IMG/VR virus record: IMGVR_UViG_3300028045_002445
Span: 1 to 24,536 of that record
Source of the DNA: a virus
Reading direction: 5' to 3' (one strand)
Length of the DNA stretch: 24,536 bases
The notes under the pieces are model-generated. The model worked only from the letters and a program-made list of their open reading frames with translations. It was not told the DNA's origin and searched no databases. Positions 1-22,584 of the stretch are shown here, in pieces. Position 1 is the stretch's first letter, and each line of letters starts with the position of its first letter. Both the position numbers and the translations under genes were made by a program.

Positions 1-2331
1 ATTGAGTATATACTACTTAACTGGGACGTTCTTAATTATTGTCATGAAAGTGGCATACCCACAGGCCCAGGTCGTGGCTCCGCTGCTGGCTCACTGGTTT
101 TGTACCTTCTTCGCGTTACAAATGTTGATCCAATTAAGTACGATTTGTTTTTTGAGCGATTTGTATCTAAGAGCCGAGCCAAACAAATAGTATCTGATGG
201 TATTACATATCTCGACGGATCGCTTCTGGCTGATGTCGATAATGATATTTCTTATGACCGAAGAAAAGAGGTCATTAAGTATATTGAGAAAAAGCACGAA
301 GGTAGAACTTGCAAAATTCTCACCTTGAACACTTTGAGCAGTAAGCTATGCATAAAAGAGTGTGGTAAGATTGTCGGAGAGTTGTCGGAAGACGATGTAA
401 ACAGTATTGGAACTCATATTCCGAAACAATTCGGCAAGGTAGCTAAGTTAGATAAAGCTTACGAAGAGAGTGAAAAATTTAAAGAATTTGCAGATAAAAA
501 TCCAAAAGTATTCAAAATAGCTAAAAAGCTAGAAGGATTAAATAAAAACACAGGAGTCCACCCATCAGGCATCGCTATTAGCTTCTATAATATTGAAGAA
601 ATTATGCCAATGCAGAGGACAAGTGATGGCGATCTTATATCAGCTTATGACATGAACGATGTCGCATCTCTGATGGTTAAGTTCGATATCCTTGGATTAC
701 GCACTCTTTCGGTCGTCCATGAAACCTGCAAACAATTAGGTATTAAAATGGAAGACGTAGACGTGGAACTACCAGAAATTTATGAAAACTTTAAAAATAT
801 CGAAGCCCCGAAGGGGTTGTTTCAAATTGAAGCGGACACAAATTTCAAGGTATGCAAAAAAATATCTCCAAGAAATTTGGAGGAGCTTTCAGCCGTTGTT
901 GCTATTGCTCGCCCTGGCGCACTTGACTATCTTGATGTGTATGGAGATTATACCAGCACTGGCGAGTTCCAGTCTGTTAATGAATATTTTGACGACATTC
1001 TCTCTTACACTGGTGGTATTCCACTATACCAAGAGCAGTTGATGAAAATGGCTGTTAAGGTAGGCTTTACTTTAGACGAATCAGAGCAACTGAGACGTAT
1101 TGTGGGTAAGAAGAAAGTTGACCAGATGGCTACTTGGAAGATTAAAATTGAGGACAAGATCAAAGAAAACGGACTAGACAGCCAAGTTGGAGATGTTTTA
1201 TGGAAAGTGGCAGAAGACTCAGCCAACTATTCGTTTAATAAATCGCACTCAATTAGTTACGCTATCTTAGCTGCAATAACAACTTATCTAAAGTTCAAAT
1301 ACCCACAGGAGTTCTTCTTGAGTTTATTAAAGATGACAAAGCACGAGCCAGACTCTCATGCAGAAATAGCGTTAATTAACCAAGAACTTTGCCTATTCAA
1401 CATGAAGCTGCTACCGCCCGACCTATCTAAATCTGATGTGTATTTTGAGAAAGAGGGTCGAAACATCAGATTCGGGGTTAACAGTATTAAGGGAGTGTCT
1501 GAGAAAACACTAGAAAGCTTAGTGGAGTTTAGAAAAGCCCAAGAAACGAATCAAAACAAATACGACATCTTCTTAACAGCAAAGCAAGCTGGAGTTAATA
1601 TCGGAGTTCTGTCTGGATTGATTCAAGGAGGCATGATGGATTCCTTTTGCGATGATGATCAAGCCACACCAAACCGTTGCCGCTTGGTATTAGAAGCTCA
1701 ATCTTTTAACATCCTAACTGAAAGAGAGAAGCGTAATATAATACAGCTTGGCGAAAAGTTCGACCACGACGTTTTGAAAGCTATTCATTCTATTGTCAAA
1801 GATAGCTTGGTTGCCGATGACGCTAAACCAATAATGAAGCCATCCCGTTTTGAAACATTCAAAAGAAAATACTCTTCTTACAGAAAAATTTACGACAAAA
1901 ACAAAGATCACCTCAAGTTTGCGAACTGGTTTTTTGAACGTAAGTATCTCGGCTACAGCCACTCTACTCAAATCAAAGATGTCTTCAAGGACTCTGGGGA
2001 CTTAAACAATAGTCTTGAATTAAAATCAATAAACAACAATGACAGAGTAAAGCTTGTTGGCGTGGTCACTGACTGCATTTCTAGAACAAGCGCAGCGGGG
2101 AATAAGTACATGAGAGTAGAAGTGCAAGATGACTTCGGTAAAATTAATTTCATGCTTATGAATAACAGGCGAGCCGCCACACTAGATAATTATATAAATA
2201 ATGGAGGCAAAAAACCAAAAGAAGATCAAATTGTTTTTATCTATGGAAGCAAAGGCGACGATGTCATTTTCGGGGATAGAATTTCTATTCTTGACGAAAA
2301 AATCTACACAAAACTATCTGAAATCAAATAA
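1..2331 (+). CDS. dnaE: DNA polymerase III alpha subunit (family C, DnaE type), 5'-partial
   Basis: Replicative polymerase that extends the primer strand at the fork. The frame is open from base 1, so the start, the PHP domain and the beginning of the palm lie outside the window; the 776 codons present begin just before PGRGSAAGSLV. The palm motif ADVDND (codons 77-82) carries the paired catalytic Asp (D78, D80), and the third Asp is D229 in KFDILGLRTL. Other family C landmarks follow in order: HPSGIAIS, GLFQIEAD, ARPGAL, PLYQEQLMKMA, RRIVGKKK and SFNKSHSISYA. An OB-fold-like stretch (VKLVGVVTD to KINFMLMNN, about codons 680-720) lies after the catalytic core, which is the DnaE order rather than PolC order. 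All catalytic residues visible are intact. The stop overlaps the next ATG (TAATG), so translation is probably coupled to the Clp-like gene. Family assignment is sure; presence of a PHP exonuclease cannot be judged. Confidence 0.96.
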   Translation: MEYILLNWDVLNYCHESGIPTGPGRGSAAGSLVLYLLRVTNVDPIKYDLFFERFVSKSRAKQIVSDGITYLDGSLLADVDNDISYDRRKEVIKYIEKKHEGRTCKILTLNTLSSKLCIKECGKIVGELSEDDVNSIGTHIPKQFGKVAKLDKAYEESEKFKEFADKNPKVFKIAKKLEGLNKNTGVHPSGIAISFYNIEEIMPMQRTSDGDLISAYDMNDVASLMVKFDILGLRTLSVVHETCKQLGIKMEDVDVELPEIYENFKNIEAPKGLFQIEADTNFKVCKKISPRNLEELSAVVAIARPGALDYLDVYGDYTSTGEFQSVNEYFDDILSYTGGIPLYQEQLMKMAVKVGFTLDESEQLRRIVGKKKVDQMATWKIKIEDKIKENGLDSQVGDVLWKVAEDSANYSFNKSHSISYAILAAITTYLKFKYPQEFFLSLLKMTKHEPDSHAEIALINQELCLFNMKLLPPDLSKSDVYFEKEGRNIRFGVNSIKGVSEKTLESLVEFRKAQETNQNKYDIFLTAKQAGVNIGVLSGLIQGGMMDSFCDDDQATPNRCRLVLEAQSFNILTEREKRNIIQLGEKFDHDVLKAIHSIVKDSLVADDAKPIMKPSRFETFKRKYSSYRKIYDKNKDHLKFANWFFERKYLGYSHSTQIKDVFKDSGDLNNSLELKSINNNDRVKLVGVVTDCISRTSAAGNKYMRVEVQDDFGKINFMLMNNRRAATLDNYINNGGKKPKEDQIVFIYGSKGDDVIFGDRISILDEKIYTKLSEIK

Positions 2332-3827
2332 TGGACTTATCTAACTTTAACCTCACTCCTTCTGCAAAAAAAGCAATTAGAGACTCAGTCTCTATCGCCA
2401 AAGACTTTGGCCACCTCAAGGTTATAGACTTGCACCTAACACTATCTATATTAACATTAACGCACAGTAGTATTGATTTTGCTTTTGCCTCTAATGACTT
2501 AATTAAAGATGGGGTTGCGAAGGGTATCGAACACGCAATTACTTCTTATAAAGAGCCAAAAAGAAAAAAAGCTATAATCGCTCCAGAGATATATGAAATC
2601 TTGGAGAACTCACAAACACTAGCCTCCAGACTCAAAGACGAGTTTATTGGCATAGATCATATCTTGGTTTCCATACTCAGCACTAGAGCAGAAATTGCTG
2701 AATTTTTGATTCATTTAGATGTAGACTTATCTAAGCTCATTGACGATTTAAAAGAAATTATAAAAGAAGGTATTCCCAGAGAAAAGGTTCCATCGACTAT
2801 TGGTTCAAATGGGAAACAACAAGAAGCTCCTTCGTCTGAAATGGATGCATGGTGCGAAAATCTGAATGAAAAAATAGCTGAAAAAAATGAGTTTGAAATT
2901 TTTGGTAGAGATAAAGAAATTGAAAGGATTTTTGAAGTACTGCTTCGTAGAAACAAAAGCAATGTCATTCTGGTCGGTGAAGCGGGTGTAGGAAAAACGG
3001 CCATTGTAGAAGGTATGGCAGAAAAAATCATAAAAAGAGAATGCCCAGACCTTTTGCTTCATAAAGAAATCCTGTGCTTAGATCTTACTTCTGTTTTAGC
3101 TGGTACTATTTACAGAGGGCAGATGGAAGAAAAATTAAAAAAGATTCTAGACCACTTATCGAAAGAAGATCACTATATTTTGTTTATCGACGAAATTCAC
3201 ACTATAGTTGGAGCTGGCAGCTCGGAGGGTAGTTTGGATCTTGCTAATATATTGAAGCCAGCCTTATCAAGAGGAAACATATCTTGTGTTGGGGCTACTA
3301 CGAAAGATGAGTATGATCGCTTTTTCAAAAAAGATTCAGCTTTAAATCGCAGGTTTGAAAAGATAGATGTCTGTGAACCAACTAAGGAAGAAACTTTTCA
3401 ATTGTTAAAAACAGCAAAGAAGTCTTATGAAAAATTTCACCAAGTAGGGTATACGGACGAATTAGTAGAAAAAATTGTAGAACTGTGTGATATTTATTTA
3501 AGTGATAAAAAATTTCCAGACAAAGCTTTTGATATCTTAGATGAATCGGGAGCAAAAACAAAAAAAATAAACATCGTGCGGCCTCAAAAAGCGAAAGACA
3601 TGGAGGCAAAATTATCTGATCAAGATTTCCAACAAACTCCTGCGTATGACAAATTAGAAAAGAAGTATTCTAAGATTATACAAAAATGGGGAAAAAGTTT
3701 AGAAAATAAAGTTTTTAATGTTGACATGGAGACTATATATGATATATTTGCAAGTAAGCTAAACGCTCCAAAAGAAAACATCAAACAAAATAAAAATGTG
3801 CCATCTTCTGGCAGAATAGGATTTTAA
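2331..3827 (+). CDS. ClpA/ClpC-like AAA+ unfoldase with N-domain and D1 only
   Basis: Hsp100/Clp unfoldases thread substrates through a hexameric ring, usually into ClpP. This 498-residue protein has a Clp N-domain (about 1-150) and one AAA+ module: Walker A GEAGVGKT (216-223), the pore-type segment YRGQMEEKL, Walker B ILFIDE (D287, E288), sensor-1 region GATTKDEY and arginine-finger pair R340-R341 in LNRRFEK. It stops just after the place where ClpA/ClpC enter the D1-D2 linker, so the second ATPase domain is absent (full family members are roughly 750-850 residues). No frameshift remnant of D2 is present: the next gene begins 16 bases on. The last residues are SSGRIGF; an IGF/IGL/VGF tripeptide is the ClpP-docking motif in ClpX, ClpA and ClpC, where it sits on an internal loop. 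The gene overlaps the polymerase stop by one base. Fold assignment is secure; partner and substrate are unknown. Confidence 0.93.
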   Translation: MDLSNFNLTPSAKKAIRDSVSIAKDFGHLKVIDLHLTLSILTLTHSSIDFAFASNDLIKDGVAKGIEHAITSYKEPKRKKAIIAPEIYEILENSQTLASRLKDEFIGIDHILVSILSTRAEIAEFLIHLDVDLSKLIDDLKEIIKEGIPREKVPSTIGSNGKQQEAPSSEMDAWCENLNEKIAEKNEFEIFGRDKEIERIFEVLLRRNKSNVILVGEAGVGKTAIVEGMAEKIIKRECPDLLLHKEILCLDLTSVLAGTIYRGQMEEKLKKILDHLSKEDHYILFIDEIHTIVGAGSSEGSLDLANILKPALSRGNISCVGATTKDEYDRFFKKDSALNRRFEKIDVCEPTKEETFQLLKTAKKSYEKFHQVGYTDELVEKIVELCDIYLSDKKFPDKAFDILDESGAKTKKINIVRPQKAKDMEAKLSDQDFQQTPAYDKLEKKYSKIIQKWGKSLENKVFNVDMETIYDIFASKLNAPKENIKQNKNVPSSGRIGF

Positions 3828-3843
3828 CAAATAAATAAATAAA

Positions 3844-4062
3844 ATGAACAAAATGAATAAGACAAACCGTATTGTAAAAGCAATCAGCGCAAGTAAGGGC
3901 CGTTTTTTTGGCCTCACCACTCGGCAAGGAGAAACACTTAACGCACAATTCGTGCGCGAGACGCCTAAGTACGTGGTGGTTCGAGATCGAAACGCAAGCG
4001 TAATGCGAAAATTCGCTAAGACGAGCCTTGAAACGCTCTCAATGGGTAAGACACAGATCTAA
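3844..4062 (+). CDS. Small basic protein of unknown function
   Basis: A 72-residue Lys/Arg-rich protein. Its core (residues 12-50: AISASKGRFFGLTTRQG, then YVVVRDRN) has the look of a small beta-barrel nucleic-acid-interacting phage protein such as the DUF2693 group, but that is a resemblance only. It has a second in-frame ATG three codons in (3853), and neither start has a clear Shine-Dalgarno; the preceding bases are AAAT repeats. Base composition (G+C-richer, CG-containing codons) contrasts with the AT-rich Clp-like gene before it. It ends 3 bases before a strong intrinsic terminator, so it is the last gene of the polymerase-Clp transcript. Confidence 0.75.
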   Translation: MNKMNKTNRIVKAISASKGRFFGLTTRQGETLNAQFVRETPKYVVVRDRNASVMRKFAKTSLETLSMGKTQI

Positions 4063-4065
4063 AAC

Positions 4066-4093
4066 AAAAGGCGGTAGAAATACCGCCTTTTTT
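4066..4093 (+). terminator. Intrinsic terminator with GAAA tetraloop
   Basis: Perfect 11-bp stem (AAAAGGCGGTA pairing with TACCGCCTTTT) closed by a GAAA tetraloop and running into a T6 tract (4088-4093). It ends the polymerase/Clp/small-protein transcript. The next -10 box starts three bases later. The opposite strand also has a T-rich tail but no gene there needs it. Confidence 0.93.
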
Positions 4094-4096
4094 GTG

Positions 4097-4108
4097 TACA
4101 ATATTGTC
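4097..4108 (+). promoter_or_regulatory. -10 box directly before the kinase-like gene, overlapping a palindrome
   Basis: TACAAT at 4097-4102 lies 6 bases before the ATG at 4109, so transcription would start at about the start codon. No convincing -35 box is seen; the terminator stem occupies that place. The 10-base palindrome ACAATATTGT (4098-4107) covers the -10. Confidence 0.45.
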
Positions 4109-5251
4109 ATGGCAACAACAAGCAAACAAGTTAAATTGAATAATTATTCAGTTGTAGACACCAACCCAAATGAAAATTCTCTAGAAGCTTCAAGATTTGA
4201 AAAAGATTTAATTAAAAAATTCATCAATGAAGTTTACAAGGATAAAGTGGGGGAAGTCGAGATTTCAAAAGTGTCTTCTAATTTTTTCTATGAGAGCTAC
4301 GGTTTAGTTATTGATAATAATAAGTTTTTACTAAAAATTAGCCTAGACCCAGAGAACCAAAAACTATCTGCAGAAAAAAATGCCCTACAACACATCCCTA
4401 ATAATATAAGCCCCAGTATCATAGCTCATAAGAGTAACAAGAAAGACGGTATTGAATTTTTGCTAACAACATGGGAAAATGGAGATAGTTTTGAAGATTT
4501 TGGAATTGATGATTTGATATATAATTTAGGCACTCTTTGTTCTGTTATCGACGGCGTTCATGAAAGTAAAAACGAAGATGCCGCGAGTTTTAAAAGCAAA
4601 TTCCTGCAAAACGAATCCATCTCATCCTTATTCGAGATGGTAGACCCAAAAGAAATACTTATTTTTGAAAAGTTGGTCGATTTAAATATAGAAGATCTCC
4701 AAAAAATCTTTTTAAAAATCAGGAAGGAATACCTACCAAAGTATAAAGAAGATGTACCTGTACTGTCTCACGGAAATATAAAAAACTCTAATGTCTTATA
4801 TTTAGAGGGTCATATAAAGTTAATTAATTTTGAGAACTGCCATAGGTGTGATTTGTATTACAGCCTCTTAAAGACGGTGACCGACCTGTACTTATACCAT
4901 AACGAGAAAACCGTAAAGGAATTTTTGCAAAAATACTATAACTCATCTAGAATATTGGGAGATATAACCCTTGATGAATTCCTACATAACTTTCAGGAAA
5001 AGAAAGAGCTTAACATGCTTTTCTTGTTTCAAGATTTATTGCATAAAATTTTATTTCATTTTATAGCTTATGGAGCTTACTACAAATCAGAGTATTTAAT
5101 TAAGTACATGAATACGTACTTAAATTTAAAACCAGTCATTGAAGAGGTTTTCCCAGAATACATGAAGTCTTTTGATAAACTATTCTTTACTGTGATGCCT
5201 ACTGTCGAAACTTATGATATAGAGCAGTTGGAAATCATTAAAAACATGTGA
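4109..5251 (+). CDS. APH/choline-kinase-fold protein, probably catalytically dead
   Basis: 380 residues from the ATG at 4109; the frame is open further upstream, but only through the terminator hairpin, so the longer start is rejected. The protein has the aminoglycoside phosphotransferase/choline kinase layout: a Lys-containing strand FLLKIS (K76) for ATP, an AEKNAL helix, a hinge around LTTWENG, and the catalytic loop followed by a metal-binding strand. Normal family members read HGD-x4-N and (I/V)DF(D/E). Here they read HGNIKNSN (H221, G222, N223, N228) and INFENC (N240, E242). Both aspartates needed for phosphotransfer are therefore asparagines, while the structural His, Gly, second Asn and Glu are kept. 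It stands alone between a terminator and the next promoter. A role as a small-molecule or glycan sensor, or inhibitor of a host kinase, is conjecture. Confidence 0.85.
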   Translation: MATTSKQVKLNNYSVVDTNPNENSLEASRFEKDLIKKFINEVYKDKVGEVEISKVSSNFFYESYGLVIDNNKFLLKISLDPENQKLSAEKNALQHIPNNISPSIIAHKSNKKDGIEFLLTTWENGDSFEDFGIDDLIYNLGTLCSVIDGVHESKNEDAASFKSKFLQNESISSLFEMVDPKEILIFEKLVDLNIEDLQKIFLKIRKEYLPKYKEDVPVLSHGNIKNSNVLYLEGHIKLINFENCHRCDLYYSLLKTVTDLYLYHNEKTVKEFLQKYYNSSRILGDITLDEFLHNFQEKKELNMLFLFQDLLHKILFHFIAYGAYYKSEYLIKYMNTYLNLKPVIEEVFPEYMKSFDKLFFTVMPTVETYDIEQLEIIKNM

Positions 5252-5303: not shown

Positions 5304-5765
5304 ATGAAACAGCACGATATTTACAAACCGAACTCCTTTAATACAGGATGCGCCTTCTCTTTTAAAATCTTAGAACAAGATAAAGAGGGTAATAAAATGA
5401 AACCGAGTCTACTTGTGCAATCTATCAAGCAGGCATCGTGGAATGATAAAACTAGAAATGGATCATTTAGTGCTAATGCTAAAGACCCAGAGAAAAATAT
5501 TTATTTTAAACTAAGCGAGAATGAAGTTGGCGGTATGCTAAACGCTATCGAAAACTACGGTGAATTTTCTGCCTTCCATAGTTACAACGATGATAAGACT
5601 ATAATCTCATTTAAACCTTATACAAAGAAGGACGGTAAGAAAGCTTTCTCATTGAGTGTCGTAAAAAATTCTACATTGAAATTCGGCATGGGAATGGAAC
5701 TTGGTGAAGCTAGAACACTTAAAGGGTTATTTGATCTATTTCTGTTTAAATATTTTAACTATTAA
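5304..5765 (+). CDS. Conserved phage-type protein, possible ssDNA-binding (Whirly-like) fold
   Basis: 153 residues from ATG 5304, preferred over an in-frame GTG at 5298 because the -10 box ends at 5296. The second half alternates short strands: NIYFKLSENEVGGMLNAIE, EFSAFHSYNDDKTIISFKPY and KKAFSLSVVKNSTLKFGMG, then a C-terminal helix-like GEARTLKGLFDLFLF. A strand-strand-helix pattern with a KxSENEV...FSAFH core recalls phage ssDNA-binding proteins of the Whirly/PurA-like superfamily, but I do not recognise the family with certainty. Its Lys-rich middle (KPYTKKDGKKAF) would suit nucleic acid. The stop overlaps the next ATG (TAATG). The gene is real; the function is a guess. Confidence 0.8.
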   Translation: MKQHDIYKPNSFNTGCAFSFKILEQDKEGNKMKPSLLVQSIKQASWNDKTRNGSFSANAKDPEKNIYFKLSENEVGGMLNAIENYGEFSAFHSYNDDKTIISFKPYTKKDGKKAFSLSVVKNSTLKFGMGMELGEARTLKGLFDLFLFKYFNY

Positions 5766-7453
5766 TGAAAAAGAAGATATTATTCCACTCAAATGGAGCT
5801 AAAGCGTTTACAGGATTTGGTAAAAACGCAAAGAATATACTCCGCCACCTTTATTCAACAAAAAAGTATGAGCTGATTGAATTTGCTAATGGTACTCAGT
5901 GGGATGATCCATCTTTAAAAACAAGGCCGTGGCAAGCGCAAGGTTCTCTTACCAATAACCAAGCAGCGTTACGTCAGCTTAATGCAGATCCCCAAAAGGC
6001 TCGCGAAGCCAACTATGGCGGCGGGACAATAGACCAAGCTATAAAGCAATACAAACCAGACATCTATTTAGGCGTAGAAGATATTTGGGCTTTTGGTGGG
6101 TTCTGGGAAAAGCCTTGGTGGAATAAGATCAATAATATGATCTGGACTACCTTAGATAGCCAACCCATATTGCCACAAGCTATTGAAGCGGCGAGTAAAA
6201 CAAAAAACTTTTATACATGGTCCTCTTTCGCAGAGAAAGACTTAAAAGAAATGGGTCACGATCACGTTGACACTTTACACGGCACTGTAAACACTGAGGA
6301 TTTTTATAGACACAGCGAAGTGTATCGTGAAGGACTTAGGAATGAATTCAAATTGTCTGATGAATTTATTATTGGCTTTGTATTTAGAAATCAACTTAGA
6401 AAAAGCGTACCCAATTTACTGGAGGGTTTTAAAATATTTAAAAAAGATTGCCCTAAAGCAAAACTCCTTCTACATACTCACTGGTCAGAAGGTTGGGATA
6501 TCCCTAGACTTATAAAAGAAAAAGATATTAACCCAAACGATGTCCTTACTACTTATTTTTGTTCTGCTTGTGGTCGGTATGAAGTTAAATCTTTCGTTGG
6601 GCAGGAACAGAAATGCAGGTTTTGCGGAACCGAGAAATCTCTTAATACCACTAACGTCAAAGCTGGAGTTAACGAATCTCAGCTTAATGAAATTTACAAC
6701 CTAATGGATGTTTATTGCCACCCATTTACTAGCGGCGGTATGGAAATACCCATCTTTGAAGCTAAGATGACCGAACTAGTTACTCTTGTTACTAACTATT
6801 CCTGTGGCGAAGATTCCTCTAGCCAAGAATGTGGTAGCTTTGCTCTTGATTGGTCAGAATACAGAGAGCCAGGTACGCAATTTATTAAAGCCTCCACCTA
6901 TCCATCAAGCATAGCAAAGCAACTTAAAAAAGTTTGGCAAATGGATAAAAACAAGCTTCGTGAAATGGGTAAAAGAGCCAGAGAGTGGACTATTGAGAAT
7001 TATTCAACAACTGCTGTTGGTAAAAAATTAGAATCAATCCTTGATGCTATGCCTAGTATAGATTATGATTATGATTTTGGTGAAGAAAAAAAGGGTTTAA
7101 ATTTAGAAGACCTTCTTGATAGTGGAAAACGAATAGCTGTAGTAATGCCTGGATCTGCTGGTGACGTTCTATGGTTGAATTCTTTAATGGACAACCTTAA
7201 AGATCTCTACCCTGATCACGACATTTACGTTTTCACAAAAAACCAATTCTTTGATTATATTGAGGATCATCCAAAAGTTTATAAAGTATTACCCTACTCA
7301 AAAGAAATTGATAATCCGCATTTTCTAGAGGGAAAGGGTGAATATAAAGGGTTATTTGATATGGCTTTCTTGCCTCATTATGGAACTCAGGTTCTTATCA
7401 ATTACCACCATAACGGCAAAGCCAAAACACAATTTAAATTATATGAAAATTAA
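5765..7453 (+). CDS. GT4 glycosyltransferase fused to the N-terminal half of a GT9 domain
   Basis: 562 residues. Residues 1 to about 435 form a GT-B glycosyltransferase (GT4-like): N-terminal HSNGAKAFTGFGKNAKNIL, the linker strand FIIGFVFRNQLRKSVPNLLEGF that opens the donor-binding domain, and a nucleotide-sugar loop SGGMEIPIFEAKM. The first Glu of the usual E-x7-E motif is Gly here. A zinc ribbon (C266, C269, C284, C287; CxxC-x14-CxxC) is inserted before the donor loop. From about residue 453 a second domain begins, with RIAVVMPGSAGDVLWLNSL and HDIYVFTKNQFFDYIEDHP. This is the start of a GT9 (ADP-heptose:LPS heptosyltransferase-like) Rossmann domain, but the protein ends at LYEN after only that half. 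The other half is in the gene at 7840. The stop lies 11 bases into the DUF6165 gene. It probably transfers sugar to a surface or virion glycan; donor and acceptor are unknown. Confidence 0.92.
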   Translation: MKKKILFHSNGAKAFTGFGKNAKNILRHLYSTKKYELIEFANGTQWDDPSLKTRPWQAQGSLTNNQAALRQLNADPQKAREANYGGGTIDQAIKQYKPDIYLGVEDIWAFGGFWEKPWWNKINNMIWTTLDSQPILPQAIEAASKTKNFYTWSSFAEKDLKEMGHDHVDTLHGTVNTEDFYRHSEVYREGLRNEFKLSDEFIIGFVFRNQLRKSVPNLLEGFKIFKKDCPKAKLLLHTHWSEGWDIPRLIKEKDINPNDVLTTYFCSACGRYEVKSFVGQEQKCRFCGTEKSLNTTNVKAGVNESQLNEIYNLMDVYCHPFTSGGMEIPIFEAKMTELVTLVTNYSCGEDSSSQECGSFALDWSEYREPGTQFIKASTYPSSIAKQLKKVWQMDKNKLREMGKRAREWTIENYSTTAVGKKLESILDAMPSIDYDYDFGEEKKGLNLEDLLDSGKRIAVVMPGSAGDVLWLNSLMDNLKDLYPDHDIYVFTKNQFFDYIEDHPKVYKVLPYSKEIDNPHFLEGKGEYKGLFDMAFLPHYGTQVLINYHHNGKAKTQFKLYEN

Positions 7454-7856
7454 AACACCTATATCAGTTGGGGAGTTGATTGATAAACTAACTATTTTGG
7501 AGATTAAAATGCAAATGATTTTCGATCTCAAAAAGCTCAAAAATATTACAGTTGAGTATAACCAATTAAAAGAACTCTACGAACGTTTTATATTAAAAAA
7601 TGAAGAATTTGCAGATATAGACTCTCTTAAACTTATCAGTCTGAAAGCTGACCTCTTTGAGCTTAATAGGTCATTGTGGATTATCGAAGATAATATAAGA
7701 GAAATGGAACGTGAAAAAGATTTTGGTCCAGAGTTCATTAGATTAGCCAGAGACGTTTATCACGCCAACGACATGCGTTTTTCTTTTAAGAGCGAAATAA
7801 ACATGCTTTCGAATTCAGAAATCAAAGAGGTAAAATCATATGAGTCATATAGCTGA
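7443..7856 (+). CDS. DUF6165 family protein
   Basis: 137 residues, starting at the ATG inside the end of the glycosyltransferase gene. Family signature blocks are all present: ISVGELIDKLTILEIKM at the N terminus, a charged helical middle, LNRSLWIIEDNIREME, then FIRLARDVYHANDMRFSFKSEIN and a terminal SEIKEVKSY. DUF6165 has no known biochemical activity but is commonly found among glycosyltransferase and LPS/capsule genes. Predicted largely alpha-helical and cytoplasmic, with no signal peptide or membrane segment. The gene overlaps both neighbours (11 bases upstream, 17 bases downstream) and sits exactly between two halves of a GT9 domain. Its complete family length indicates it is functional rather than debris. 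Confidence 0.9.
   Translation: MKIKTPISVGELIDKLTILEIKMQMIFDLKKLKNITVEYNQLKELYERFILKNEEFADIDSLKLISLKADLFELNRSLWIIEDNIREMEREKDFGPEFIRLARDVYHANDMRFSFKSEINMLSNSEIKEVKSYESYS
7826..7839 (+). promoter_or_regulatory. Ribosome binding site of the GT9 C-terminal-half gene
   Basis: AGAGG at 7826-7830 lies 9 bases before ATG 7840. It is notable because most + strand starts in this window have no Shine-Dalgarno, and it supports this ATG as a real, independently initiated start inside the end of the DUF6165 gene. Confidence 0.55.
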
Positions 7857-8967
7857 AGTTTACGCAAAAGATTTGGGGGTTAAAATTGGCCGCCCACAAA
7901 TAACTGACCATTTTTTTCCAGGTCTTCCTAATAAGTATATTACCATACAGTCTTCCAACAAGATGCCTGGGGCTGTGTACAAATACTGGGATATCGTGCT
8001 GAAGCTAGTCAAGCCCTACCTACAGAAGGAGGAGGTGAAAATCATCCAAATAGGAGGTCCAGAAGAACAGGAAATTCAAGGCGCAGATTATTATTTCTTG
8101 GGATCGACTTACAAGCAAATGAATTATATAATCAAAAAAGCTTCGACACATGTTGGGTGCGATAGTCTTCCTGGGCATATTGCAGGAGCTTATGATGTAC
8201 CCTGTGTAATTGTACATTTCAACTTATATCCAGAAAACTCAAAACCCCTTTGGCATAAGCAAAATAAGTCCATCAGCATCTCTCCAGATTTTTCTGAAAT
8301 AAAACCTTCGTTTAGTACTACCTGCGATAGAATAAACGAAATTAAACCAGAAGTAATAGCTCAAAACATTTTAGATCAATTGGGCATCTCAAATAAAATA
8401 AAATTTAAAACAATCAAAATAGGCAAGCATTTTCATAACGAATGCGTAGAGATTGTCCCAAACTTTTTTGCCTTCTCCCAAAAACTACAAGGAAAACCTG
8501 TAAATATCAGAGCGGATATTCATTTTGATATCAATCACATTATTAAGTGGTGTCAAACTTGTATTGTGAGCCTGCATATTGAACAGCATTTCGACGTTAA
8601 GATTGTAAATGCGCTGACCAATGTAAAACAAATTATCTTTAAATATAAAAAATGCCACAATGACTTAGATTTAAATGAGTTTTTTAATTTTATTAAAAAC
8701 AAAAAAATTAGGCTTTTGATCGTTTGCGAGGACGAAGAGAACATTTCGGACATAAGATTCAAATATTTTGATTTTGATATTATAGAAGACATCAAGCCCG
8801 AAAAACAAATAAATAGCGAGAAATTCTTTTCAAAGAAGCTGTTCATATCTAATGGCGATACATACTCTTCAGAATCTTCCGCAAATAGACTTGACAAATC
8901 TCATAACTTCGTTTATGATGATGCCTCATCTAAAGAATTAGAAAGTTTATACCTATATGAAGAATAA
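7840..8967 (+). CDS. C-terminal half of a GT9 (heptosyltransferase-like) domain plus a second uncharacterised domain
   Basis: 375 residues. Residues 1 to about 185 match the donor-binding half of GT9 glycosyltransferases: KYITIQSSN, then VKIIQIGGPEEQE, the FLGSTYKQMNYIIKKAS helix, and the family hallmark VGCDSLPGHIAGAYDVPCVIV (compare VGNDSGPMHLAAALGxPxVALF). It lacks the acceptor half, which is found at the end of the protein encoded at 5765; together they would make one full GT9 enzyme. Residues about 190-375 are a separate alpha/beta region (ECVEIVPNFFAF, VNIRADIHFDINHIIKWCQ, IRLLIVCEDEENISD) that I do not recognise. The tail is acidic. It overlaps DUF6165 by 17 bases and the next gene by 11 bases. 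Confidence 0.86.
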   Translation: MSHIAEVYAKDLGVKIGRPQITDHFFPGLPNKYITIQSSNKMPGAVYKYWDIVLKLVKPYLQKEEVKIIQIGGPEEQEIQGADYYFLGSTYKQMNYIIKKASTHVGCDSLPGHIAGAYDVPCVIVHFNLYPENSKPLWHKQNKSISISPDFSEIKPSFSTTCDRINEIKPEVIAQNILDQLGISNKIKFKTIKIGKHFHNECVEIVPNFFAFSQKLQGKPVNIRADIHFDINHIIKWCQTCIVSLHIEQHFDVKIVNALTNVKQIIFKYKKCHNDLDLNEFFNFIKNKKIRLLIVCEDEENISDIRFKYFDFDIIEDIKPEKQINSEKFFSKKLFISNGDTYSSESSANRLDKSHNFVYDDASSKELESLYLYEE

Positions 8968-18579: not shown

Positions 18580-19122
18580 ATGTTGGAAGAAAATAAATAT
18601 AAATTTTCAAATGAAGAAAGTTTTGATGATGTTCGCAAAATAGCATCCATACAATTCAGAAAAATAATTAAAAATTTTAATCAATCTAGTTTTAATACAG
18701 ATTTGAGAGGACTTTTTTGTGGCAGCAATGATTGTTACAAACTATTTTTAAGAAAAAACGATTCAATATTATGTGGTAATCTTTCTTACATATTTGAAGA
18801 TTGCGTCATAACAGATATATATTTTTGGAATGACATTTTGTTTTCTAGAAATAACGAAGAGGTTAGACTTTTTCATGAGAAATTTTTCAAGGAAACTTCT
18901 TTATTGGGGATAAATAACACAATAATGCCCTTAGATAAGTTCAGGTTTAAACATGAGTCATTTAAAAAATACTGCCAAAAAATGTTTTTTTCAAACACTG
19001 AGTGTAAGATAAGCGACCCTTTAATCAACAAAGAATACAAAGATCATTATCTCTTGAAAATAAATCATAAAAATTATTTTAAAAAAGCAGGAGAAGCCAA
19101 CGTCAGGATTTTGCATGAATAA
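18580..19122 (+). CDS. Hypothetical protein
   Basis: 180 residues, strongly AT-rich codons (Lys, Asn, Phe, Ile), preceded by a sigma70-like promoter five bases from the ATG. No signal peptide or membrane segment. Visible features: N-terminal helix with FDDVRKIASIQFRKIIKNF, a strand-like region YKLFLRKNDSILCGNLSYIF, seven cysteines scattered without a CxxC pair, and a C-terminal LLKINHKNYFKKAGE. The strand-turn-strand middle could be part of an acyltransferase-like fold but nothing diagnostic is present. It overlaps the sulfotransferase start by 8 bases, so the two are co-transcribed and may share a pathway. Function unknown. Confidence 0.75.
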   Translation: MLEENKYKFSNEESFDDVRKIASIQFRKIIKNFNQSSFNTDLRGLFCGSNDCYKLFLRKNDSILCGNLSYIFEDCVITDIYFWNDILFSRNNEEVRLFHEKFFKETSLLGINNTIMPLDKFRFKHESFKKYCQKMFFSNTECKISDPLINKEYKDHYLLKINHKNYFKKAGEANVRILHE

Positions 19123-19762
19123 AAAAAAGTTTACCTTTGGAGCTAATAAGAAGGTCAATTTTATTCGCATCCCCAAAAATGCCAGCACATCTCTCTATAA
19201 TTATTTCGGTGCAACAAATACAATTAGAGACAACTACCTTAATGTAGATAACGAAGTTTATAAAAATATATTTGCTCCATCTCACTGCCGCTTAGATTTT
19301 GCAGTTAAAGAATTTGGCGAAAGAATTTTAGATTTACCCACGTTAGCAGTAATAAGAAATCCATACGACAGGATGGTCTCGATGTATTTTTTCGCTCAAA
19401 AATTCAAACTAAACAAAATATACGATGTCAATATAGATAATTTCTTAAAATTCTGTGAGGATTTTGAATCTTTATGCTCGGATGAAGATTTTTTTCATGG
19501 TTGGACTCAAAAATCTTTTATAGAGCTTGAGGGCAATATTTCAGTAGGTAATTTGATTAGGTTTGAAAATTTAGAAGTGGAATTTACTAAGTTTTTACAC
19601 GAACATAATTTGAAAAAATTTTATAAAAAAGCTGGAATTGAACTCAAAAAAGAGAACCAAACAAAGCACAAAGCTTATCAAGAGTACTTTTGCCCCAAAT
19701 CTAAAAACATTATTAACAAAATCTGGGGAGAAGATGTGGATTATTTTGGATATCTGTTTTGA
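19115..19762 (+). CDS. Sulfotransferase (Sulfotransfer_2 / carbohydrate type)
   Basis: 215 residues. Uses PAPS to sulfate a substrate, typically a sugar hydroxyl in this subfamily. The 5'-phosphosulfate-binding loop is FIRIPKNASTSLYNYF (about residues 16-31; family IPKTAGTS), and the 3'-phosphate-binding motif is LAVIRNPYDRMVSMYFF (about 76-92; family RNPYDRLVS). Further family features are the FxxW/T-x4 region HGWTQKSFIE, the strand NLIRFENLEVEFTKFL and a C-terminal HKAYQEYFCPKSKNIINKIWGEDVDYFGY, which is the usual ending. Complete, with no missing motif. Starts inside the last codons of the gene at 18580. Together with a second, unrelated-subfamily sulfotransferase at 21784 it brackets the LRR fibre genes. 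Confidence 0.92.
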   Translation: MNKKKFTFGANKKVNFIRIPKNASTSLYNYFGATNTIRDNYLNVDNEVYKNIFAPSHCRLDFAVKEFGERILDLPTLAVIRNPYDRMVSMYFFAQKFKLNKIYDVNIDNFLKFCEDFESLCSDEDFFHGWTQKSFIELEGNISVGNLIRFENLEVEFTKFLHEHNLKKFYKKAGIELKKENQTKHKAYQEYFCPKSKNIINKIWGEDVDYFGYLF

Positions 19763-19792: not shown

Positions 19793-20668
19793 ATGGCAGA
19801 CAAAAAAATATCAGAACTTACGGAACTAACTTCAGCTAACGCGGTAACTGACTTCTTGCCAGTTGTTGACGCTAGTGCAAATGAGACTAAAAAGATTAGA
19901 CTTAGTAATTTGCCGTTGAGTGATTCGGCTCGAAATTCTGTATACCCCTACACTACGGACTTTCAGTCAGGAGTAGAGCAAACTAGAAACCTTACAAGTA
20001 TTGCATCTTCAGATGGGTATACTTATAATGGCAATTTAACTAGCATTCACGTTGGCAGCAACGTTACCAGCATCGGGTCGGACGCATTCCGTGACTGCAC
20101 TAGCCTGACGAGCATCATCATCGGCAACAGCGTGACCAGCATCGGGAATTACGCATTCTATTACTGCACTGGCCTGACGAGCATCACGATTCCCGACAGC
20201 GTCACCTATATCGGTAGTGAAGCATTCTATACCTGCTCTGGCCTGACGAGCGTCACCATCGGCAATAGTGTCACCAGCATCGGGGATTATGCATTCACTA
20301 ACTGCAGCGGCCTGACGAGCGCAACCATCGGCAATAGTGTCACCAGCATCGGGAGTTACGCATTCTATAACTGCAGCAGTCTGACGAGCATCATCATTCC
20401 CAACAGCGTCACCAGCATCGGGTTTGGCGCATTCCGAGACTGCAGCAGTCTGACGAGCGCAACCATCGGCAACAGCGTCACCAGCATCGGGATTGCCGCA
20501 TTTGCTCAATGCACTAGCCTTGCTACAATTAACTGCCTTGCTACAACTGCTCCAAGTCTTGGGGGTGGTGTGTTTAATAACGTAGCAGCTACAGACATCC
20601 ACGTTCCAGTAGGGGCAACAGGATACGGAACTACATACGGAGGTTTAATAGTTAAATTTGATTTATAA
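19793..20668 (+). CDS. Tail-fibre-like protein with BspA-type leucine-rich repeats (paralogue 1)
   Basis: 291 residues. Residues 1-43 (MADKKISELTELTSA, LPVVDASANETKKIRLSNLPLS) form the short N-terminal attachment motif common in phage fibre and tail-appendage proteins. Residues 82-242 are seven 23-residue LRR_5/BspA-type repeats of the form LTSxTIGNSVTSIGxxAFxxCxx. A capping segment follows (LATINCLATTAPSLGGG, DIHVPVGA, YGGLIVKFDL). Variable positions fall on two residues before AF and two after it, i.e. the same face of the solenoid in each turn. No signal peptide. BspA-type LRRs bind proteins or glycans on surfaces, so a receptor-binding role is likely but inferred. The repeat DNA is far more G+C-rich than the flanking genes. 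It is followed immediately by a longer paralogue. Confidence 0.88.
   Translation: MADKKISELTELTSANAVTDFLPVVDASANETKKIRLSNLPLSDSARNSVYPYTTDFQSGVEQTRNLTSIASSDGYTYNGNLTSIHVGSNVTSIGSDAFRDCTSLTSIIIGNSVTSIGNYAFYYCTGLTSITIPDSVTYIGSEAFYTCSGLTSVTIGNSVTSIGDYAFTNCSGLTSATIGNSVTSIGSYAFYNCSSLTSIIIPNSVTSIGFGAFRDCSSLTSATIGNSVTSIGIAAFAQCTSLATINCLATTAPSLGGGVFNNVAATDIHVPVGATGYGTTYGGLIVKFDL
20036..20518 (+). repeat. Seven tandem 69-bp LRR-coding repeats
   Basis: Seven in-frame 69-base units, each coding 23 residues. Constant blocks include AACAGCGTCACCAGCATCGGG and GCATTC, with variation concentrated in the six bases before GCATTC and the six bases after it. The units are G+C-rich compared with the AT-rich flanks. 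Confidence 0.93.
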
Positions 20669-20672
20669 TATA

Positions 20673-21749
20673 ATGGCAGACAAAAAAATATCACAACTAA
20701 CAGAATTAACTTCAGCTGATCCAGCAATCGATGTGCTGCCACTAGTAGACAGCGATTTAAATCAGACCAAAAAGATTAAACTGGCAAACCTTCCTCTGAG
20801 TGATGCTGCTTTTGAGCAGTCTTATCCATATACTGTTGACTTTCAGAATGGAGTGAAGCAGACGCGTGATTTAGCTTCGATTGCATTTTCAGATGGGTAT
20901 GGTTATACTGGCCAGCCAAGTAGTATTTACATTGGTAGTAACGTCACTACTATAGATGCTTTTGGTTTTTCTTTTTCTCCGCTTACGAGCATCACTATTC
21001 CCGACAGCGTCACCAGCATCGGGGATTTCGCATTCCAAAATTGCAGTAGCATAACGAACGCAACCATCGGCAACAGCGTCACCAGCATCGGGAGAAGCGC
21101 ATTCGATTCCTGCTATATAATGACGAGCGCGACCATTGGTAACAGCGTGACCAGCATCGGAGATTACGCATTCAAGAGCTGCACTGACCTGCAGAGCGTC
21201 ATCATTCCCGACAGTGTCACCAGCATCGGGTCTACCGCATTCAATGGCTGCAGCAGCCTGACGAGCGCAACTATCGGCAACAGCGTCACCAGCATCGGGA
21301 ATTACGCATTCGCTAGCTGCGGCAGCCTGACGAGCGTCATCATTCCCGACAGCGTTACTAGTATCGGGAATTACGCATTCGGTAGCTGCACTGGCCTGAC
21401 GAGCGCAACCATCGGCAACAGCGTCACCAGCATCGGGTCTTACGCATTCCAAAGCTGCACTGGCCTGACGAGCATCACGATTCCCGACAGCGTCACCAGC
21501 ATCGGGTCTTACGCATTCCAAAGCTGCACTGGCCTGACGAGCGCAACCATCGGCAACAGCGTCACCAGCATCGGGGGTTTCGCATTTGCTTACTGCGCTG
21601 GCCTTGCTACAATTAACTGCCTTGCTACAACTGCTCCTACTCTTGGTAGTAGTGCGTTCGCTAGCGTAGCCACTTCAGACATTCACGTTCCAGTAGGAGC
21701 AAATTACCCAGCGACATACGGAGGTTTGATAGTCGTCTTCGATTTATAG
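20673..21749 (+). CDS. Tail-fibre-like protein with BspA-type leucine-rich repeats (paralogue 2)
   Basis: 358 residues from ATG 20673; an in-frame ATG 15 bases earlier overlaps the previous gene and would break the MADKKIS start shared with paralogue 1. TATAAT at 20664-20669 lies 3 bases upstream, though read-through from the first fibre gene is also likely. N-terminal motif MADKKISQLTELTSA and NQTKKIKLANLPLSD match paralogue 1 nearly residue for residue. A degenerate repeat (82-103) is followed by nine 23-residue repeats (104-310), which in the second half strictly alternate between IPDSV and IGNSV types, a 46-residue higher-order unit. The cap LATINCLATTAPTLG to YGGLIVVFDL matches paralogue 1. 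A tandem gene duplication with differing repeat number. Confidence 0.88.
   Translation: MADKKISQLTELTSADPAIDVLPLVDSDLNQTKKIKLANLPLSDAAFEQSYPYTVDFQNGVKQTRDLASIAFSDGYGYTGQPSSIYIGSNVTTIDAFGFSFSPLTSITIPDSVTSIGDFAFQNCSSITNATIGNSVTSIGRSAFDSCYIMTSATIGNSVTSIGDYAFKSCTDLQSVIIPDSVTSIGSTAFNGCSSLTSATIGNSVTSIGNYAFASCGSLTSVIIPDSVTSIGNYAFGSCTGLTSATIGNSVTSIGSYAFQSCTGLTSITIPDSVTSIGSYAFQSCTGLTSATIGNSVTSIGGFAFAYCAGLATINCLATTAPTLGSSAFASVATSDIHVPVGANYPATYGGLIVVFDL
20982..21602 (+). repeat. Nine tandem 69-bp LRR-coding repeats
   Basis: Nine 69-base in-frame units. The seventh and eighth share an uninterrupted identical stretch of about 54 bases (21420-21473 and 21489-21542), including the normally variable codons TCTTAC and CAAAGC, which points to a recent unit duplication or conversion. 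Confidence 0.93.
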
Positions 21750-21783: not shown

Positions 21784-22584
21784 ATGAGTAAACAACTACA
21801 CTTCGTATCTGGTCTTCCACGAGCTTGCTCCACGCTGCTCTGCAATCTTCTCGCACAGAACTCAAGAGTTCACGCTACGCCTACTAGTGCCTTGCACGAA
21901 ATCGGGTATATAGCCCGCCAAGTCTTTCAAACAGAGGAAGCAAAAGCTGTAGATATGAAGAAAGTTCTTGAGCCTATGTATTTGGATTACGTCAAGGCTG
22001 GCTGTGAGAATGCTTTTAATAGCATTACAGACCGCCCAGTAGTTGTAGACAAATGCCGCTCTTGGATTGGTCACCTAGATCAACTTTTTAAGGTATGGCC
22101 AGACGCTAAGGTTCTTGTCCCAGTCCGTGATATACGCGGCATTCTTTCTAGTATGGAAAAGAAACGCCAGCAGCACCCAGAAGTTTTTAACGGAGCAGAG
22201 CAACAGAACCCTCAGAATTGGACAACTATTGATAAACGTGCCAACGGCTGGCTACAAAGCCCTCCAATTGGAATTGCTATCGAGAGACTACACGAAGCCA
22301 AGGAACGCTTTGGCGATAAGCTTATGTTCGTTCACGCAGAGGACTTAACAGAAGACCCACAAAGCGTAATGAATAATGTATGGGAGTTTCTTGGAGAAGA
22401 GCCTTTCATTCACAATACTTCCAACGTAGAACAATACACCAAAGAAAATGATGTAGGTTTCCCATATGGAGATCATGTCATTCGACAAGAAGTAAAACCA
22501 CTAAAAAAAGATTGGCACGAAACACTTGGTCGCCAACTCTCAGAACAACTTAACCAAAAATTTAACTGGATCAACGAATTATGA
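21784..22584 (+). CDS. Sulfotransferase (Sulfotransfer_3 / tyrosylprotein-sulfotransferase-like)
   Basis: 266 residues. The N-terminal PAPS loop is FVSGLPRACSTLLCNLLAQN (about residues 7-26; family GLPRSGSTLL), followed by the HATPTSALHE segment. The 3'-phosphate-binding strand and loop are VLVPVRDIRGILSSMEKK (about 109-126). LMFVHAEDLTEDPQSVMNNVWEFLGEEPF is the usual sulfotransferase C-terminal block. It differs in subfamily from the sulfotransferase at 19115: no IPKNAS/RNPYDR pair. Acceptor unknown; protein Tyr, glycan and small molecules are all possible. It has its own promoter directly after the LRR fibre genes, and its stop overlaps the DUF4376-like gene (ATGA), so the two are co-expressed. 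Confidence 0.9.
   Translation: MSKQLHFVSGLPRACSTLLCNLLAQNSRVHATPTSALHEIGYIARQVFQTEEAKAVDMKKVLEPMYLDYVKAGCENAFNSITDRPVVVDKCRSWIGHLDQLFKVWPDAKVLVPVRDIRGILSSMEKKRQQHPEVFNGAEQQNPQNWTTIDKRANGWLQSPPIGIAIERLHEAKERFGDKLMFVHAEDLTEDPQSVMNNVWEFLGEEPFIHNTSNVEQYTKENDVGFPYGDHVIRQEVKPLKKDWHETLGRQLSEQLNQKFNWINEL

Follow-up and report, generated by a model that had tools for sequence, protein, structure and literature searches.

A single-ring phage Clp ATPase with a conserved C-terminal IGF tail, a candidate recruiter of host ClpP

The clp gene, its product and its neighbours

The window analysed here is a stretch of 24,536 nucleotides from the IMG/VR virus record IMGVR_UViG_3300028045_002445. It opens with a gene for a DnaE-type DNA polymerase III alpha (1..2331, plus strand), truncated at the 5' end, whose mechanical ORF runs from position 100. 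Because the window edge cuts this gene, the N-terminal half of DnaE is out of view. The next gene (clp, 2331..3827, plus strand) starts with ATG and encodes 498 amino acids ending in ...NVPSSGRIGF*. The two genes are translationally coupled through TAATG at 2329-2333, where the dnaE stop codon TAA and the clp start codon ATG have one base in common.

Family matches, PDB matches and an AlphaFold2 model describe the clp product as an N-domain, a D1 AAA+ module and an IGF tail. The Clp N-terminal double-repeat domain covers residues 1-150 or so (2331..2780, plus strand). Its helices have a pLDDT of 82-97, and the Pfam family Clp_N (PF02861) matches residues 95-144 with scores over the cut-off. 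The D1-type large and small AAA+ domains follow at about residues 170-485 (2838..3785, plus strand; Pfam AAA 212-345 and AAA_lid_9 352-446). They hold Walker A (GEAGVGKT, residues 216-223), the pore loop (GT[IM][YF]RG, 258-263), Walker B (LFIDE, 284-288), sensor-1 (ATT, 322-324), the Arg fingers (RR, 340-341) and the lid motif PDKAFDILDE. The key Walker A/B, sensor-1, Arg-finger and pore-loop residues are invariant in an alignment of 60 single- and two-ring sequences. Residues 486-498 (3786..3824, plus strand) form a flexible tail without secondary structure. The tail ends in the putative ClpP-docking tripeptide Ile-Gly-Phe (3816..3824, plus strand).

PDB homology pairs residues 12-482 with residues 10-489 of ClpC and finds nothing beyond. 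Hence there is a single AAA+ module and no second one, and the architecture read from the letters in the first-pass annotation (an N-domain plus one complete AAA+ module, no second ring) is confirmed by Pfam and PDB homology alike. The best family-model matches are to the D1 half of ClpA, ClpB and ClpV, and also to ClpK and ClpG. The ClpA equivalog model TIGR02639 scores 340 bits, over residues 11-465 only, against a cut-off of 993 bits. PF07724 (AAA_2, HCLR-type) is absent from the Pfam matches of the window protein and appears only below threshold on the D1 of relatives.

The AlphaFold2 model, built with 60 sequences, has a mean pLDDT of 84.9, with residues 486-498 as low-confidence coil. 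Searches of the PDB and with Foldseek place ClpC and ClpC-ClpP complexes at the top. The model aligns with ClpC to residue 490, the point at which the ClpC chain runs on into D2. A helical hairpin of about 40 residues, resembling a short M-domain, lies ahead of the last D1 helix (residues ~418-460, about 3582-3710). It is missing from one subclade of single-ring Clps (L015, L046, L047, L050, L051 and L057). Since this subclade does without it, the hairpin is dispensable, which the IGF is not.

Across the 29 single-ring loci described below, dnaE always lies directly upstream of clp and overlaps it. These loci were found via clp, so the linkage is unbiased. The overlap is one base in 21 loci, as previously noted for the window, but the remaining eight have a four-base ATGA overlap instead. 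The linkage suggests that clp is expressed together with the replication genes. It is also usual in two-ring loci, but most of those were found via dnaE. A small gene downstream (3844..4062, plus strand; 72 aa, RIVKAIS..GRFFGLTT) is conserved next to clp in 25 of the 29 single-ring loci and in 17 of 42 two-ring loci. It is followed at 4028-5251 by a kinase-like gene with a weak APH match (E 0.006). Loci of both the single-ring and the two-ring type keep this kinase-like gene downstream of clp, among them L058, L059 and L062.

Elsewhere in the window, two genes near the replication genes have glycosyltransferase matches: group 1 and, weakly, heptosyltransferase-like (GT9) (5765-7453 and 7840-8967). 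The adjacent genes 19793-20668 and 20658-21749 carry tandem leucine-rich repeats of 69 bp (23 aa) that resemble the BspA type (TSIGxxAFxxCTSLTSI). They have similar non-repeat starts (MADKKISELTELTSA) and are a recent duplication, possibly of receptor-binding or adhesion proteins. Sulfotransferase-like genes (Pfam Sulfotransfer_2 and Sulfotransfer_3) lie on either side of the pair, at 19115-19762 and 21784-22584.

The IGF tripeptide in single-ring and two-ring relatives

To collect homologues from IMG/VR we used the protein as the first query and a profile of D1 stretches as the second; IGF was never a search pattern. This yielded 29 distinct, complete single-ring proteins, the window included. 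All 29 carry IGF within the last five residues, at identities down to about 48%. The tripeptide is the exact C-terminus in 22 proteins, is followed by one residue (H, L or I) in six and by two (GV) in one. Because 7/29 have extra residues, the conserved item is an IGF tripeptide that ends a flexible tail rather than a free carboxylate. The first-pass annotation had proposed to ask whether homologues from related phages keep the IGF end, and they do without exception. The exact C-terminal GRIGF that it described stands for the window; in the clade, an exact IGF end holds for most members but not for all.

Conservation is confined to the tripeptide itself. Among 22 representatives less than 90% identical (farthest pair about 48%), the IGF columns have zero entropy and the five preceding residues have 1.4-2.8 bits. 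Such an ending is also beyond chance. Of the 712 closed ORFs in the fetched loci that reach 100 aa, 29 are the single-ring Clps. None of the other 683 has [LIVM]G[FL] within five residues of the C-terminus.

Beyond the single-ring clade, the relatives are two-ring Clp proteins, of which we collected 44 distinct sequences. The set was enlarged with a two-ring query and then by a dnaE-anchored search, which added many more; one member, L060, is an outsider without a neighbouring dnaE. L058 and L059 encode full two-ring Clps of about 800 aa in the gene order of the single-ring loci (dnaE, clp, small gene, kinase-like gene). The dnaE of L059 is interrupted by an insert (1869-2840) with a 323-aa ORF, which looks like part of an intein or homing endonuclease.

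[MIVL]GF follows the TSN/TGN strand in the D2 loop of every one of the 44 two-ring sequences, and no C-terminus among them bears the tripeptide. HMMER aligns the loop to its counterpart in S. aureus ClpC. The placement is thus complementary over 29 + 44 sequences: D2 loop if D2 is present, tail if it is absent. The D2 fold does not impose [MIVL]GF, since three phage isolates have LGM, MGM or IGV at this position.

In a maximum-likelihood tree of the N-domain and D1, the single-ring proteins form one clade (100/100) within the two-ring sequences. The DnaE tree, rooted on relatives without a nearby Clp gene (100/99), again nests the single-ring clade (100/100) among two-ring sequences, with some backbone forks moderately supported. 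This nesting in both trees indicates that the second ring was probably lost once. The docking tripeptide probably survived or re-arose as a tail after the loss. The tail may have come from a deletion that joined the D1 linker to the former loop, or it may have originated afresh. An earlier suggestion that the phage had moved the docking tripeptide to a C-terminal tail is supported by the invariant tail, the invariant two-ring loop and the single D2 loss that the trees imply.

Outside this family, bacterial genomes gave no close relatives of the single-ring Clp. The profile search returned only remote Clp proteins, mostly of two-ring length; in the 21 that we examined the tripeptide never forms the C-terminus. 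VIA-align and Foldseek brought up no closer one-ring relative, though one may still exist. In the open-licence literature we found nothing on a C-terminal IGF tail that docks ClpP or on single-ring phage ClpA/C.

Two further arrangements were considered and rejected. One is a split gene with D2 encoded elsewhere: in nine single-ring records of 31-113 kb no separate D2 scored above the cut-off, and matches below it were confined to D1 and a single weak, unrelated ORF (the two-ring record scored 186 bits). The other is a phage-encoded ClpP: none of 39 phage records, the window included and many of them fragments, has a ClpP family match. The nearest isolates are distant (DnaE about 24-31% identical, tail protein about 27-36%), and their hosts are mixed.

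A proposed route to host ClpP and its alternatives

We propose, with a probability of roughly 0.68, that the single-ring Clp works as an unfoldase, recruiting host ClpP through its C-terminal IGF tails and docking in an HslU-like manner. The Clp N-domain would pick the client. A hexameric D1 ring, hydrolysing ATP, would then draw it through the pore. Six flexible tails would insert IGF into hydrophobic clefts of host ClpP, which would degrade the client. The client may be tied to replication or host takeover at the time when dnaE is expressed. Feeding of a host protease is probable because the docking ring is gone but the Ile-Gly-Phe grip has been kept as a free tail.

In evolutionary terms, the ancestral two-ring phage Clp would have used the usual D2 loop to dock ClpP. 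Once D2 was gone, a tripeptide that had persisted or reappeared at the D1 terminus may have given an HslU-like arrangement.

Is such a machine plausible? The tail should exit on the D2/ClpP side of the ring, because the model follows ClpC up to the chain's entry into D2. The E. coli ClpAP complex engages ClpP through six IGL loops and leaves one cleft empty (PMC9663308); six tails on heptameric ClpP would likewise leave one empty. A linear IGF peptide is reported to have very little activity on ClpP (PMC8745299), although six tails per hexamer would give avidity. The ring is probably an active motor, given that its motor residues are invariant across the 60 sequences. It could nevertheless be a weak unfoldase, because E. 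coli ClpA relies mainly on its D2 ring as the motor, with D1 in an auxiliary role (PMC9663308).

Alternatively, the D1 ring may remodel an initiator, a helicase loader or the polymerase independently of ClpP, and the IGF tail may bind a phage partner, for example DnaE. The first-pass annotation had already pointed this way. ClpP is not needed when ClpA and ClpX remodel P1 RepA and Mu MuA, and the overlap of clp with dnaE in all single-ring loci, together with a linkage that holds in the two-ring relatives, is what a replication factor would lead us to expect. However, in the two-ring relatives this tripeptide sits on the ClpP-docking loop of D2. A tail that binds the polymerase would not predict this, and the coincidence of tail and loop motifs goes unexplained. 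Furthermore, phages with a related dnaE but no nearby Clp gene exist, so this dnaE lineage can do without Clp. The point is weak, as absence was scored in fragments: no Clp was detected in 16 such records, by a search without a positive control. Overall, we consider remodelling without ClpP unlikely.

The tails could also make the protein a decoy. They would fill the clefts of ClpP, block host ClpXP and ClpAP and shield phage proteins, with unfolding a secondary matter. Each subunit offers one docking tripeptide, and the ring that was lost is the main motor in ClpA (PMC9663308), both of which would suit a decoy. Yet a pure blocker would not need the Walker A/B, sensor, Arg-finger and pore-loop residues that are invariant here, which makes this quite improbable.

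We give still less credence to a tail that acts on its own protein, as a hexamer stabiliser or a degron, with no external partner. Disordered hydrophobic C-termini can be degrons or pack on neighbours, and the free HslU tail packs against its neighbour (PMC4106860). But the single-ring tail tolerates one or two extra residues in 7/29 proteins and shares its tripeptide with the docking loop of the two-ring proteins related to it.

Finally, the IGF codons might be kept as an AGG ribosome-binding site for the next gene rather than for the peptide. The Ile codon is ATA in 28/29, far over the background of 44% of Ile codons in these genes. ATAGG occurs in 28/29, in several members 6-9 bases from the next start. 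Some extra nucleotide constraint may act on these codons. Still, IGF is kept although GG lies anywhere from 6 to 31 bases ahead of the following start codon (14-31 bases for most representatives), the downstream gene differs in four members (L042, L047, L048 and L050), L042 encodes IGF by ATTGGCTTT with no AGG, and a ribosome site needs neither an in-frame Ile-Gly-Phe nor TTT; this reading is largely rejected as an artefact, and selection on the peptide appears the better explanation.

Returning to the recruitment of host ClpP, with slightly less assurance we favour a broader claim: that a viral lineage swapped its two-ring Clp for a D1 ring of the classic clade, which would drive host ClpP unaided through C-terminal IGF tails, docking by tail instead of loop. 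This would perhaps be the smallest degradation motor of the ClpA/C type. If so, the ClpP-docking tripeptide is portable, and an unfoldase can lose the ring that holds it and still dock from a free tail. With this protein one could test if ClpP can be driven solely by a D1 ring, which is regarded as auxiliary in ClpA. Designers of small degraders that work through host ClpP would also gain a natural template. For phages it would be a further route to redirect host proteolysis, by an unfoldase expressed beside the replicative polymerase.

Comparison with known systems

The single-ring Clp descends from ClpA/ClpC-type proteins. It has the N-domain, D1 module, pore loop and catalytic residues in common with ClpC and ClpA. 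These have a D2 ring with a docking loop, whereas the single-ring Clp has no D2 and carries the tripeptide on its C-terminal tail. Because D2 is missing, it lies outside ClpA/ClpC in the strict sense. An [LIV]G[FL] tripeptide on a flexible element characterises unfoldases that dock ClpP, and here it takes the form of IGF on a disordered tail in every member. ClpX likewise combines one ring with an IGF docking tripeptide. In ClpX, however, IGF sits on an internal loop of a different AAA+ type, and the single-ring Clp matches the D1 of ClpA/B/C.

HslU and the proteasomal ATPases dock from free tails. HslU docks HslV by its C-terminal tails, and an aromatic residue enters the peptidase pockets (PMC4106860). 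One ring and a C-terminal tail with an aromatic residue (Phe in the single-ring Clp) are common to both, a likeness in the proposed working only. HslU partners HslV, whereas the single-ring Clp combines a Clp N-domain with a D1 module of the ClpA/B/C type. Its family matches (ClpA, ClpB, ClpV, ClpK and ClpG) place it in a family other than HslU.

The phage two-ring Clp ATPases of PHROG 4871, such as those of Agrobacterium phage Atu_ph07 and Staphylococcus phage SpP, have a homologous N-domain and D1. Several have D2 loops of the IGF/LGF type. All seven that we examined are full-length (709-817 aa, in stop-to-stop frames) and none has the tail motif, in contrast to the single-ring Clp with its IGF tail.
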